DNA from: Oscillospiraceae bacterium
GTDB taxonomy: Bacteria; Bacillota; Clostridia; Oscillospirales; Acutalibacteraceae
Reading direction: 5' to 3'
Length of the DNA: 34,999 nt
NCBI GenBank assembly: GCA_902792985.1
Contig: CADBBT010000014.1
Span: 1-34,999 of the forward strand
The notes beneath the pieces are model-generated. The model was not told where the DNA came from. It ran no database searches and saw only the letters and a program-made list of their open reading frames with translations. Numbering within the stretch: the stretch's first letter is position 1; each line of letters opens with the position of its first letter. A program made the position numbers and the translations under genes. Positions 2,743-11,159 of this stretch are shown here, piece after piece.

Positions 2743-3879
2743 TCAATCCTCCGTGTAAGAGCCGAGATAGGTGAACAGTTGCGATTCCGCTTCCAGCTCC
2801 GTAATGAGCGTGCGCAGCGCAGGGGAGTATACCGAGGCTTCCACGTCAAAATAAAACATAAACTCAAAGTTGGAACCGGCGATCGGTCGGCTTTCCAGCT
2901 TAGTCAAATTCAGATCCAGCGCGGCAAAGCGTGAGATCGTGTGATAGAGCGAGCCGGGACGGTGCGCCAGCGTGAGCATGATGCTGGTTTTATTTGCGCC
3001 GGGATAGATCTCAAGATCCTTGGAGATGCAGATAAATCGCGTGTAGTTGTTTTGCGTGTTCTGCACAGCGGTGGAAAGCACGTTCAAATCATAAAGCTCT
3101 GCATTGTCCTTGGAACCGATGGCGGCAACGTCCTTCCGGTCGCTTTCGGCAACCAGTTTTGCTGCTTCGGCAGTATTTTTACAGGGATGTACCTTCCATT
3201 GGTTTTTCGCAATGAATTCCGAACACTGCGCAAGCGCCTGCGGATGAGAGTAGACCTCTTTGATGTCCTTCAAACAAACGCCGTCCGGTGCAAGCAGAGC
3301 ATGACCGATGAACAGCTTTAAGCTGTGCGTGATATAAAAGCGGTATTTGCGCATGAGGTCGTAAACTTCGTTTACTGAACCGGCGGTACTGTTTTCCACT
3401 GGCAGAATACCGTAGCGGCAAAGTCCGCTGTCCACAGCCTTGAATACCTCTTCAAAGCCGGAAAAGTAGAGAATAGAAGGATATTTGAACATTTTGTCTG
3501 CGGCGTGCTGAGAGTAAGCACCCTCCACACCCTGACAGGCGACAACGGCACGTTCTGGACGCTCTTTCGGCGTTGTTTCAATCACACGGTCCATTTGCGC
3601 GCACAACGAGGACAACGCGTGATTTCCGCTGTGCTGATAGGAACGGCTGACATCAAACAGTGTCTGATAGAGCACCTTGGTATATCCGGCAAGGGCGGGA
3701 GGCACATTGCCGGTTTGCTTGTTGATGATCTCCCGCTCGCGCGACGTATCGGTTACAGCGGTCTCATGCTCTTTTTTCCATTGCGCAATTTTTTGCGCGT
3801 CCTCCATGCGTCGCACGAAAAGCGAGGTGATCTGATCGTCGATGCAATCGATATCTTTCCTGAGTTCTTTTAAATCCAT
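2743..3879 (-). CDS. pheA: Bifunctional chorismate mutase / prephenate dehydratase (P-protein)
   Basis: Converts chorismate to prephenate and then to phenylpyruvate, the committed route to phenylalanine. Of 378 residues, about 1-85 form an AroQ-type helical chorismate mutase ('MDLKELRKDIDCIDDQI'). About 110-283 form the prephenate dehydratase domain with 'QGVEGAYSQ' 116-124, 'PVENSTAGSV' 160-169 and the TRF motif at 280-282. About 297-373 form an ACT domain with 'ESRP' 329-332, the usual phenylalanine feedback site. A longer frame begins at 3936, but the ATG at 3879 has AAGGAGG just upstream and the chorismate mutase fold begins right there. It lies 11 nt after the aroC stop and 2 nt before the aroE-aroK start, in the aromatic operon. 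Confidence 0.95.
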   Translation of the reverse strand: MDLKELRKDIDCIDDQITSLFVRRMEDAQKIAQWKKEHETAVTDTSREREIINKQTGNVPPALAGYTKVLYQTLFDVSRSYQHSGNHALSSLCAQMDRVIETTPKERPERAVVACQGVEGAYSQHAADKMFKYPSILYFSGFEEVFKAVDSGLCRYGILPVENSTAGSVNEVYDLMRKYRFYITHSLKLFIGHALLAPDGVCLKDIKEVYSHPQALAQCSEFIAKNQWKVHPCKNTAEAAKLVAESDRKDVAAIGSKDNAELYDLNVLSTAVQNTQNNYTRFICISKDLEIYPGANKTSIMLTLAHRPGSLYHTISRFAALDLNLTKLESRPIAGSNFEFMFYFDVEASVYSPALRTLITELEAESQLFTYLGSYTED

Positions 3880-9112: not shown

Positions 9113-9147
9113 ATAAGAAAACCCCGCAGCGTTCGTTCACTGCGGGG
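9113..9147 (-). terminator. Attenuator terminator in front of aroF
   Basis: On the minus strand, CCCCGCAG (9140-9147) pairs perfectly with CTGCGGGG (9122-9129) around a 10-nt loop, followed by TTTTCTTAT. It lies between the leader peptide and the aroF ribosome site, so it must be read through for the operon to be expressed. It ends no other gene except possibly the flavodiiron gene reading from upstream. Confidence 0.88.
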
Positions 9148-9185
9148 ATTGTGTACATTGTCCTCTTTTACAGCATGCGTGAACG
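9134..9185 (-). promoter_or_regulatory. Candidate antiterminator pairing of the aro leader
   Basis: In the leader RNA, CGTTCAC-GCA-TGC (9173-9185) can pair with GCAGTGAACG (9134-9143), giving 10 bp with a 3-nt bulge. This takes GCAG away from the terminator stem (4 of its 8 bp). A competing partner is TGAACG at the leader start codon (9242-9247), which can pair with CGTTCA and so free the terminator. The three-way competition is the layout of trp-type attenuators. Pairings were found by eye; energies were not computed. Confidence 0.65.
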
Positions 9186-9191
9186 CCTCTA

Positions 9192-9248
9192 TTAACTTTT
9201 GTTAATAAAGGTAAAATAGTAGTAAACAATTGCAAATGTTCCGTTCAT
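9192..9248 (-). CDS. Aromatic operon leader peptide (Tyr/Phe-rich, 18 aa)
   Basis: The short frame encodes MNGTFAIVYYYFTFINKS and stops at TAA 9192-9194. It has AGGAGG at 9259-9264, 10 nt before the ATG, and lies between a consensus promoter and the attenuator. Six of its 18 codons are Tyr or Phe, with the run YYYFTF in the middle. A ribosome held at these codons when Tyr- or Phe-tRNA is short would cover the start region and let the antiterminator form. The peptide itself probably has no function beyond this. There is no Trp codon, in line with the absence of trp genes from the operon. Confidence 0.82.
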   Translation of the reverse strand: MNGTFAIVYYYFTFINKS

Positions 9249-9279
9249 CGTTCGGACGCCTCCTGTAAATGTTGGATGT

Positions 9280-9308
9280 ATTTTATCACTTTAAACACCT
9301 AAAGTCAA
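9280..9308 (-). promoter_or_regulatory. Promoter of the aromatic amino acid operon
   Basis: On the minus strand, TTGACT (9303-9308) and TAAAAT (9280-9285) are separated by exactly 17 nt, a near-consensus vegetative sigma promoter. The leader peptide ATG follows about 30 nt downstream of the -10 box. The -35 box starts about 30 nt beyond the flavodiiron stop. Confidence 0.85.
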
Positions 9309-9337: not shown

Positions 9338-11128
9338 TTATTCGATCGGCTCAAAATCGGCAACGCCGTGTTTGCACAGCGGGCAGATGTAATCATCGGG
9401 CAGTTCGTCGCCTTCATAGACATAGCCGCAGATCTTGCACACGAAGCCTTTCTTACCTTCGGTTTTTGGCTTCGGCTTCACGCTGTTCTGATAATAAGTA
9501 TAGGTCATGGTCGGCTTGTCGGAGATCACACGCGCTTCCGTAACGGTGCAGATGAACATACCGTGCGTGTCAAGGTCAACATAGTCCTCCACTTTGAGTG
9601 AAAGCATGGCGTTGATGTATTTCGGCAAAAACACCAGTCCGTTGTCGGAACGCAGGGGAGCGCAGTCCTTGAACTTGTCAACCCCGCGGCCACTCTGGAA
9701 CCCGAAGGTTTCAAACACTTTGAACGGCGCTTCTTCGCTGAGCACATTGACGTTCATTTTTCCGGTCTGTTTGATCACATGGTGGGAATAGTTTTCCTTA
9801 TTGATCGTTACTGCGATACGGTTGGGTGTATTCGTCACCTGTGTGACGGTATTGACGATCAGACCATTGTCTTTTTTGCCGTCATTGGACGTGACAACAT
9901 ACAGACCGTAGCCGATGCTGAACAGGGCAGAGAGGTCGTTCTTGTTTGCAGTCTCGTCGTGCTGGGCAAGATAATCCTTGCAAAGCTCGTCAGCGAGTTT
10001 TTCGATCTGCTCCTTGCTCGTATCATTGAGCGCCGAGGTGAGGCGTACATCGTTCTCGGCGTAGCTCAGGTTCTTGCAGCCTTCGAGCATCTTTTTCATC
10101 GTCTTGGTGGCCATCGGCGCCCAGGAGCCGTTTTCAATGAACGCAACGGTCTTGTTCTGGAAATTACGTTCGGTCAGATGATCGATGAATTCACGCATGA
10201 ACGGGAAAATGTCTGCGTTATATGTTGTTGTTGCAAAAACAAGCCGGCCGTAGCGGAACGCGTCTTCCACACATTCTGCCATATCTTCACGCGCAAGATC
10301 GTTGACAACGACCTTCGGGCAGCCTTTTTCTTTCAGTTTCTGCGCAAGCAGTTCAACTGCTTTTTTCGTGTTGCCGTAAACGGAAGTGTAGCTGATGAGG
10401 ATGCCGTCGCTTTCCACACCATAGGAGGACCAGGTGTTGTAAAGTCCTAGATAGTAGCCGAGGTTTTCCTTGAGTACGGGACCGTGCAGCGGGCAGATGG
10501 TCTGAATATCGAGCGCGGCGGCTTTTTTGAGCAATGCCTGCACCTGTGCGCCGTATTTGCCGACGATGCCGATATAGTAGCGCCGCGCTTCGCAAGCCCA
10601 GTCTTCCTCCACATCCAGCGCGCCGAATTTGCCGAAGCCGTCCGCGCTGAACAGCACCTTATCCGTGGCGTCATATGTGACTATGACCTCCGGCCAGTGG
10701 ACCATCGGCGCAGCGACAAAATGCAGTTCATGCAGGCCCAGCGGGAGCATGTCGCCTTCCTTGATCACGATGCGGCGTTCGGAAAAATCTTTGCCGAAGA
10801 AGTTGTTCATCATGGTGAACGCTTTGGCAGAGGAAACGATCGTTGCGTCGGGGTAGGTGTTCATGAAGTTGACGATATTCGCGGAATGATCCGGCTCCAT
10901 GTGCTGTACGATCAAATAGTCGGGCTTGCGGCCTTCAAGGGCTTTATCGAGGTTGTCGAGCCACTGATGAGTAAAGTTTTTGTCAACTGTATCCATTACG
11001 GCGATCTGCTCGTCAAGGATGACATAGGAGTTATATGCCATGCCGTTGGGGACGATGTACTGTCCTTCAAATAAGTCGATCTGGTGATCGTTCACGCCGA
11101 TATAACGAATATCTTTGGTAATTTCCAT
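9338..11128 (-). CDS. Flavodiiron protein with flavin reductase and rubredoxin domains
   Basis: A soluble reductase of oxygen (to water) and/or nitric oxide, used by anaerobes to survive air. The 596 residues hold four modules. A beta-lactamase-like diiron domain (about 1-245) has ligands H76, E78, D80, H81, H144, D163 and H215. A flavodoxin domain (about 242-390) has the FMN loop 'TSVYGNT'. A flavin-reductase-like domain spans about 400-540. A C-terminal short rubredoxin has C564, C567, C582 and C585; the 14-residue gap between Cys pairs is of the short, rubrerythrin-like kind. The ATG at 11128 has AAAGG at 9 nt, while the in-frame TTG at 11137 abuts it and is rejected. Having both electron-entry domains suggests one polypeptide can take electrons from NAD(P)H down to the diiron site; that is inference. 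It lies just upstream of the aro promoter with no clear terminator between. Confidence 0.92.
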   Translation of the reverse strand: MEITKDIRYIGVNDHQIDLFEGQYIVPNGMAYNSYVILDEQIAVMDTVDKNFTHQWLDNLDKALEGRKPDYLIVQHMEPDHSANIVNFMNTYPDATIVSSAKAFTMMNNFFGKDFSERRIVIKEGDMLPLGLHELHFVAAPMVHWPEVIVTYDATDKVLFSADGFGKFGALDVEEDWACEARRYYIGIVGKYGAQVQALLKKAAALDIQTICPLHGPVLKENLGYYLGLYNTWSSYGVESDGILISYTSVYGNTKKAVELLAQKLKEKGCPKVVVNDLAREDMAECVEDAFRYGRLVFATTTYNADIFPFMREFIDHLTERNFQNKTVAFIENGSWAPMATKTMKKMLEGCKNLSYAENDVRLTSALNDTSKEQIEKLADELCKDYLAQHDETANKNDLSALFSIGYGLYVVTSNDGKKDNGLIVNTVTQVTNTPNRIAVTINKENYSHHVIKQTGKMNVNVLSEEAPFKVFETFGFQSGRGVDKFKDCAPLRSDNGLVFLPKYINAMLSLKVEDYVDLDTHGMFICTVTEARVISDKPTMTYTYYQNSVKPKPKTEGKKGFVCKICGYVYEGDELPDDYICPLCKHGVADFEPIE

Positions 11129-11159
11129 AGTATTCAACCTTTCTGCTTGATTTGGCGGT

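Follow-up and report, generated by a model that had tools for sequence, protein, structure and literature searches.

A probable ribosome-mediated Tyr/Phe attenuator in front of the aromatic operon of an Oscillospiraceae bacterium, with relatives at aroF loci in Clostridia

The eight-gene phenylalanine and tyrosine operon of an Oscillospiraceae bacterium is very probably controlled by a classical, ribosome-mediated transcription attenuator that responds to the charging of tRNA-Tyr and tRNA-Phe. We came to this reading by comparing sequences, starting from the 34,999-nucleotide stretch of contig CADBBT010000014.1 that holds the operon (here called the window). Sequence and comparison together give a leader frame with a Tyr/Phe run, a strand 2 behind the run that can pair with either strand 1 or strand 3, a terminator made of strands 3 and 4, and pairings that co-evolve between loci. 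An earlier note on this DNA had proposed a Tyr/Phe leader attenuator and had made the proposal depend on conservation of the short frame and of the pairing in close relatives. We found both to be conserved, which supports the attenuator reading.

The leader and the operon that follows it

The features of the window are collected in Table 1. As the earlier note had stated, a consensus promoter, an AGGAGG and an 18-codon frame with a YYYFTF run precede a terminator that lies just before aroF. A promoter scan of 1.2 kb gave 2 promoter-like sites compared to 0.9 in shuffled sequences, and the promoter call therefore rests on its position and on its conservation in relatives, with the same layout kept 5' of the leader in L001-L007 of the genus. 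The terminator hairpin has a predicted energy of −19.5 kcal/mol (shuffle z −5.7).

The claim of a whole aromatic operon downstream, from aroF to aroQ, also held, with eight genes named by NCBIfam and all on the minus strand. Starting from erythrose-4-phosphate and PEP, their enzymes together make prephenate and then the keto acids of Phe and Tyr. We searched the host genome (2.6 Mb, 89% complete) for the TrpE N-terminal domain and found none, in keeping with a leader that is set to Tyr and Phe only. The domain was found in only 3 of the 34 genus genomes, none of these 3 being among the AroF carriers. The aroE-aroK fusion is one 412-aa frame; it has an end-to-end match in genome G008 and partial or full matches in the sister-type operons described below.

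Table 1. Features of the leader region and operon in the window
Feature	Position	Strand	Basis or remark
Flavodiiron-type protein with rubredoxin-like end, gene upstream of the leader	9338-11137	-	
Sigma-70 type promoter TTGACT-17-TAAAAT, extended -10 (TG before the second hexamer)	9308-9280	-	10/12 matches
Inverted repeat ACTTTA-N6-TAAAGT within the promoter spacer, candidate operator	9305-9288	-	
Strand 1, outer part (Shine-Dalgarno and start region), partner 9168-9185	9268-9249	-	fold
Shine-Dalgarno AGGAGG of the leader frame	9264-9259	-	
Leader frame MNGTFAIVYYYFTFINKS, 18 codons, stop UAA then UAG	9248-9192	-	conserved in relatives
Leader codons ATG AAC GGA ACA TTT GCA ATT GTT TAC TAC TAT TTT ACC TTT ATT AAC AAA AGT TAA	9248-9192	-	
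Control codons Tyr-Tyr-Tyr-Phe-Thr-Phe (YYYFTF)	9224-9207	-	
Inner 1:2 hairpin, 9211-9201 with 9196-9186, covering the last leader codons and stop codon	9211-9186	-	fold; conserved in 11 aligned leaders
Strand 2, antiterminator 5' side	9185-9177	-	
Intrinsic terminator hairpin (3:4), 10 bp, CCCCGCAGTG AACGAA CGCTGCGGGG, then TTTTCTT to 9115	9147-9122	-	covaries in relatives
Strand 3, antiterminator 3' side, equal to terminator 5' arm and loop	9143-9134	-	
aroF, 3-deoxy-7-phosphoheptulonate synthase	9094-8087	-	NF006421 and TIGR01361 over cut-off
tyrA, prephenate dehydrogenase	8094-7240	-	best NCBIfam match below its cut-off
aroB, 3-dehydroquinate synthase	7226-6174	-	TIGR01357
aroA, 3-phosphoshikimate 1-carboxyvinyltransferase	6204-4951	-	TIGR01356
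aroC, chorismate synthase	4994-3891	-	TIGR00033
pheA, chorismate mutase-prephenate dehydratase	3936-2743	-	NF008865 over cut-off and chorismate mutase domain matches
aroE-aroK fusion, shikimate dehydrogenase and shikimate kinase	2746-1508	-	aroE and shikimate kinase models in two halves, below cut-offs
aroQ, type II 3-dehydroquinate dehydratase	1523-1095	-	TIGR01088

Competing pairings in the window

The 171-nt leader folds better than its shuffles (z −6.2, 0 of 200 as low) into two structures, a long 1:2 hairpin and the terminator. Outside the inner hairpin, the 1:2 fold continues with 9253-9249 on 9185-9181, 9259-9256 on 9180-9177, and 9268-9263 on 9173-9168. When strand 1 was removed, which is what a ribosome halted on the Tyr/Phe run would bring about, and the 3' arm of the terminator was not yet made, strand 2 folded onto strand 3 instead. 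The fold of the window thus holds 1:2, 2:3, and 3:4 pairings that exclude one another.

These results correct the earlier note in detail. It had proposed an alternative pairing that takes half of the terminator, and such a pairing is predicted; its 10 bp between 9173-9185 and 9134-9143 became 9 bp with one bulged A between 9185-9177 and 9143-9134. It had also proposed that an upstream strand competes for the same partner, naming the start-codon region at 9242-9247. The competition stood, and the competing bases are mainly GAACG at 9253-9249, just 5' of the ATG, extended by the two outer stems given above so that the Shine-Dalgarno region is included.

Judged singly against dinucleotide shuffles, the window reached p 0.02 for 2:3 and p 0.86 for 1:2 when the latter was limited to the run codons. 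We also folded the RNA left free by a ribosome at the stop codon. This remainder had an energy of −5.2 kcal/mol, no better than shuffles (z 0.4), and the terminator formed after its 3' arm became present.

Conservation within the genus

We found an AroF of the window type in 8 of the 34 genus genomes. The leader frame is present at all eight loci with upstream sequence (L001-L007 and L009); L008, a fragment lacking upstream sequence, was left out of the leader count. These frames end in variants of YYYF[TS]FINKS or YFYF[RY]FINKS, and the Tyr/Phe run carries synonymous third-position changes. A covariance model built from 11 leaders, termed R1, added a ninth genome, G008, in which the leader (L110/L127) stands before tyrA-aroB-aroA-aroC-pheA-aroEK-aroQ. 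This operon has lost aroF, and a search of G008 for an AroF of the window type found none. By aroC, ten genus genomes have a window-type operon, and in the tenth (G027) the contig begins inside tyrA. All 9 window-type genus operons with their 5' end on the contig carry the leader, including the one without aroF.

Scanning the 34 genus genomes with R1 gave no leader site beyond the aromatic operon. The same scan of 150 family genomes gave 17 places. One is the window, 13 precede an AroF match, and the remaining 3 are weak and have no AroF. One of the 13 (L118) precedes a 42-residue AroF match at a contig end. The three weak places (L121, L125, and L126) were weighed as second leader sites and were taken as chance. 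Two of the genomes, G142 and G134, seem to be repeats of L023 and L034, with the same match and leader.

The alignment of the 11 leaders covers the inner hairpin and the terminator, and 94.5% of its cells are paired. Six of 20 pairs changed on both sides, a count equaled in 3 of 500 shuffles, and none of the 500 matched the covariation score. For "further pair types", the count was not above that of the shuffles (344/500). A single antiterminator register across the alignment was rejected, as L001-L003, the window's branch of the genus, use a shifted 2:3 register. A locus-by-locus duplex test was used in place of an alignment-wide register.

The genus has two alternative aro operons, with 10 genomes of the window type, 23 of a divergent (sister) type, and 1 without an aroC match. 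Sister-type genes run pheA-aroB-aroC-aroEK-aroQ-aroA-tyrA, and the divergent type is led by a PLP aminotransferase and pheA (e.g., L128-L132). The aroC of the 23 sister-type genomes is 46-50% identical. In the 5 of 23 sister-type operons examined, neither a leader-like ORF nor a T-box was found before the operon.

Conservation beyond the genus

Genome contigs were scanned for aroF, and the best 80 of at least 595 loci made up the wider set. Within this set, 62 of the 80 loci have a Tyr/Phe leader no more than 500 nt from aroF. Sixty of these came from the ORF search, L074 and L086 were added, and two spurious ORFs (L062 and L081) were set aside. A leader-like frame at L081 lies further off, 1.2 kb upstream of aroF and ahead of a different gene, and has no recognised Shine-Dalgarno.

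Seventeen of the best 80 loci (of at least 595) have no leader before aroF. Three offer less than 200 nt of upstream sequence (L061, L083, and L087), and ten have a long ORF ending at most 119 nt from aroF (L020, L030, L041, L045, L058, L063, L066, L069, L079, and L085). The four without an obvious reason (L021, L027, L033, and L062) have enough upstream room, and no leader was detected there.

As a control, we counted ORFs with at least 6 F/Y in 10 codons at most 350 nt from aroF. Such ORFs occurred at 62 of 84 real loci and at 2 of 84 on the reverse strand, while 20 shuffled sets gave a mean of 1.05 and a maximum of 3 of 84. With a Shine-Dalgarno required, these counts were 50 real, 0 reverse strand, and 0.05 shuffled (of 84). 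A string test found no Shine-Dalgarno in 6 of 60 wider loci. Both Tyr and Phe, the two amino acids that the window operon serves to make, occur in the runs of 60 of 62 leaders, and the frame is conserved at the protein level with synonymous changes. A terminator follows the run in 62 of the 63 leaders searched, the exception being L054.

Five loci (L017, L028, L040, L050, and L053) make up a leader subtype with two aromatic clusters, the second part being GFYFFSAG-like, and with longer frames and different strands.

Co-evolving strands and the proposed mechanism

The pairings were tested in 62 leaders, taken from 70 loci with an ORF; 15 further loci had no ORF, and 4 had too little upstream sequence. 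We dropped L005, L006, L007, L040, L050, L062, and L081, whose frames fell short of 6 F/Y in 10 codons, and also L054, where no terminator was found. Strand 2 lies a median of 21 to 35 nt, and the terminator a median of 70.5 nt, after the last aromatic codon. The strand sequences are very different between loci, e.g., TTTGTGCTGC with GCAGCACAA in L088 and AAATACGGTTATTTTT with AAGATGACCGTATT in L032.

We then compared each leader's own strands with partners exchanged between the 62 leaders. The 2:3 energy was −13.5 kcal/mol for own partners compared to −9.8 kcal/mol for exchanged ones (z −12.2), and the 1:2 energy was −25.3 compared to −18.0 kcal/mol (z −15.5), with 0 of 5,000 permutations reaching the real value in either case. 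Among the 46 less similar loci, cross-locus permutation still gave z −11.0 for 2:3 and z −14.2 for 1:2. Reversing strand 2 nearly removed the effect (z −2.0, 58/2,000, and z −2.4, 13/2,000), so base composition explains only a little of it. Taken one by one against dinucleotide shuffles, 27 of 67 loci reached p < 0.05 for 2:3 and 22 of 67 did so for 1:2 (run codons only). In 59 of 62 loci, 1:2 and 2:3 share at least 4 nt of strand 2.

From these elements, the following mechanism can be proposed. With ample Tyr and Phe, the ribosome would read to the stop codon and leave; the 1:2 pairing would then form, and the terminator would stop RNA polymerase. With Tyr or Phe in short supply, the ribosome would stall on the run and block the inner 1:2 hairpin. 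Strand 2 would be free to pair with strand 3, no terminator would form, and the operon would be transcribed.

We examined these states with a fold model that stops before the 3' arm of the terminator and counts the expected pairs from upstream RNA to strand 3. Over the 62 leaders, the mean was 8.2 in the absence of a ribosome; it rose to 11.7 when one was stalled mid-run and was 5.8 when one stood at the stop codon. In the model, stalling added 2 or more pairs to the ribosome-free count in 39 of 62 leaders, leaving 23 of 62 with a smaller gain; compared to the stop state, it added that many in 49 of 62. For the window, the three values were 4.3, 10.8, and 9.4. This implies that masking by a terminating ribosome is weak here and that release of the ribosome and re-forming of 1:2 would have to act. 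For leuA in Shewanella, a release-and-refold model of this sort has been put forward (PMC2659441).

A leader of this kind might instead encode an arrest peptide, whose nascent Tyr/Phe-rich chain would detect a free small molecule within the ribosome tunnel, in place of codons that detect charged tRNA. Pre-run residues such as AAEY do recur in many leaders, as this explanation would have it. However, the leaders differ widely in how many F and Y they have and in how these are ordered and spaced, and we saw no fixed arrest motif. Furthermore, the DNA behind AAEY, GCAGCNGAATA, resembles the terminator arm GCAGTGAAAT, so the recurrence can be explained as strand 1 RNA. We regard an arrest peptide as very improbable.

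An inverted repeat in the promoter spacer

Within the genus, we identified ACTTTA-N6-TAAAGT between the -35 and -10 elements of L001-L007, with a variable N6. The copy in the window is the sole exact site in the host genome. The 34 genomes hold 28 exact sites, compared to 20 for a backward control pattern. Seven of the 28 are at window-type promoters, and 4 lie before sister-type operons without a leader, where they share a distance of 3453-3493 nt from aroC. In L130, the repeat (3859-3876) is 145 nt before the first gene of the sister-type operon. Chance would give about 0.005 operon-proximal sites if sites were independent, which sites in related genomes are not. One-mismatch repeats were present before the sister operons L129 and L131, and a search before L128 and L132 found none. 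Taken together, the repeat suggests a second, repressor-type layer of control, with the repeat as the candidate operator of a putative aromatic regulator.

These same sites would be expected if a DNA-binding repressor were the main control and the leader and terminator did no more than set a constant basal level. Yet L009, L010, and G008 all keep the leader and lack the repeat, and a fixed terminator would need no co-evolving 1:2 and 2:3 strands. Repression as the main control is, in our estimate, less probable still than an arrest peptide.

T-boxes and other known RNAs

T-boxes are in use in the host genome (9 matches, of which 5 are over the cut-off, including one before pheS and one before ilvB), and one could suppose that a T-box or a metabolite riboswitch works the terminator and that the small frame is incidental. 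Against this, the Rfam 15 covariance models gave no match in the window; at E up to 10, only RF02860 appeared, at E 0.31 and far under its gathering score. The search of 26 related loci (20 from L014-L063 and 6 from L128-L133) likewise returned only tRNA genes and no RF00230 match, and we rejected a T-box or other known RNA for the window and these loci. Conservation of the frame at the protein level, with synonymous changes, also contradicts an incidental frame. We consider this explanation very improbable, below that of the repressor. The T-box matches elsewhere in the genome imply that T-boxes and the Tyr/Phe leader coexist. In the window's own genome, they include L091, L090, and L098, and lie before pheS and ilvB and, below the cut-off, before a trpB-like gene.

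Least probable of all is a leader acting chiefly on translation, with 1:2 hiding its own Shine-Dalgarno, for while the 1:2 fold of the window includes 9268-9256 and overlaps AGGAGG, aroF carries an AAGGAGG of its own that is not part of the switch, and between the two stands a strong terminator followed by a U tract.

Relation to known leaders

Enteric attenuators (trpL, pheL, and hisL) have a leader frame with codons for the product of the operon, 1:2, 2:3, and 3:4 pairings, and a terminator before the first gene. The window leader shares all of these traits. It differs in having both Tyr and Phe in the run, in preceding the whole shikimate-to-Phe/Tyr pathway as one operon, in its occurrence in Clostridia, and in lacking an Rfam match.

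T-boxes are alike in sensing tRNA charging and in working a terminator before amino acid genes, and a Tyr T-box has been described before the tyrosine operon of the B. cereus group (PMC2494555). However, they bind tRNA directly and use no ribosome, and RF00230 is unmatched in the window though present elsewhere in the host genome.

The earlier note had set Phe and Trp attenuators in proteobacteria against T-boxes or TRAP in Firmicutes. This contrast has to be softened. Experimental evidence has been reported for ilv-leu leader peptides in S. aureus and L. monocytogenes (PMC6123439), and leader peptides are predicted for hisS/hisZ in bacilli (PMC2965389) and for hisZ in C. difficile (PMC4833913). 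As described there, these resemble the window leader in joining an amino-acid-rich leader to a terminator; they differ in being built on branched-chain amino acids or His, not Tyr/Phe, and in preceding other genes.

A mixed Tyr/Phe leader before aroF, which the note had called notable, is likewise less singular than it seemed. The aroF of C. glutamicum has a predicted leader peptide with Phe-Tyr-Phe, detected as a small transcript (PMC4046766). That case is an actinobacterium and a single species, and its description, as far as available, gives no cross-species pairing analysis (PMC4046766). The uORFC-13-1 motif, for which a translation-speed mechanism was proposed, places a predicted Phe-containing uORF directly upstream of a terminator before aroF (PMC8632094). 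It comprises 24 sequences, from Acholeplasma and the environment only; compared by its available description, it has at least one Phe codon, with no Tyr stated and no 1:2/2:3 switch described (PMC8632094). We found no published description of Tyr/Phe aroF leaders of Clostridia in the open-access literature searched.

Ribosome-mediated attenuation is therefore already known, Firmicutes included, and the Clostridia Tyr/Phe set is notable for its breadth and its clear co-evolving strands. The E. coli trp operon stacks attenuation on operator control. Judging from the loci compared here, we lean toward the view that the Clostridia leaders form an uncatalogued, Clostridia-wide attenuator class that is the standard control of aroF-led operons. 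The class would be kept despite changes in codon order, strands, and operon make-up (even loss of aroF), in lineages where pheS and branched-chain genes are under T-box control. In the genus, it would be stacked on a shared operator for a putative aromatic regulator, reaching the trp logic with other parts. Such a class would amount to a large family of Tyr/Phe attenuators, open to testing, among Clostridia of the gut and rumen, where one would expect to find T-boxes. It would make nutrient sensing of the aromatic pathway predictable from sequence. The co-evolving strands of the 62 loci should also serve as a benchmark for attenuator prediction and as a basis for an Rfam entry.

By record name, the carriers include members of Oscillospiraceae, Ruminococcus, Emergencia, Gallicola, Sporobacter, and Angelakisella. 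Cultured carriers include Angelakisella massiliensis, Sporobacter termitidis DSM 10068, Yanshouia hominis, Ruminococcus sp. zg-924, and Emergencia sp. 1XD21-10. Single carriers are labelled Treponemataceae (L042) and Lentisphaerae (L070), which may reflect transfer or mis-binning.
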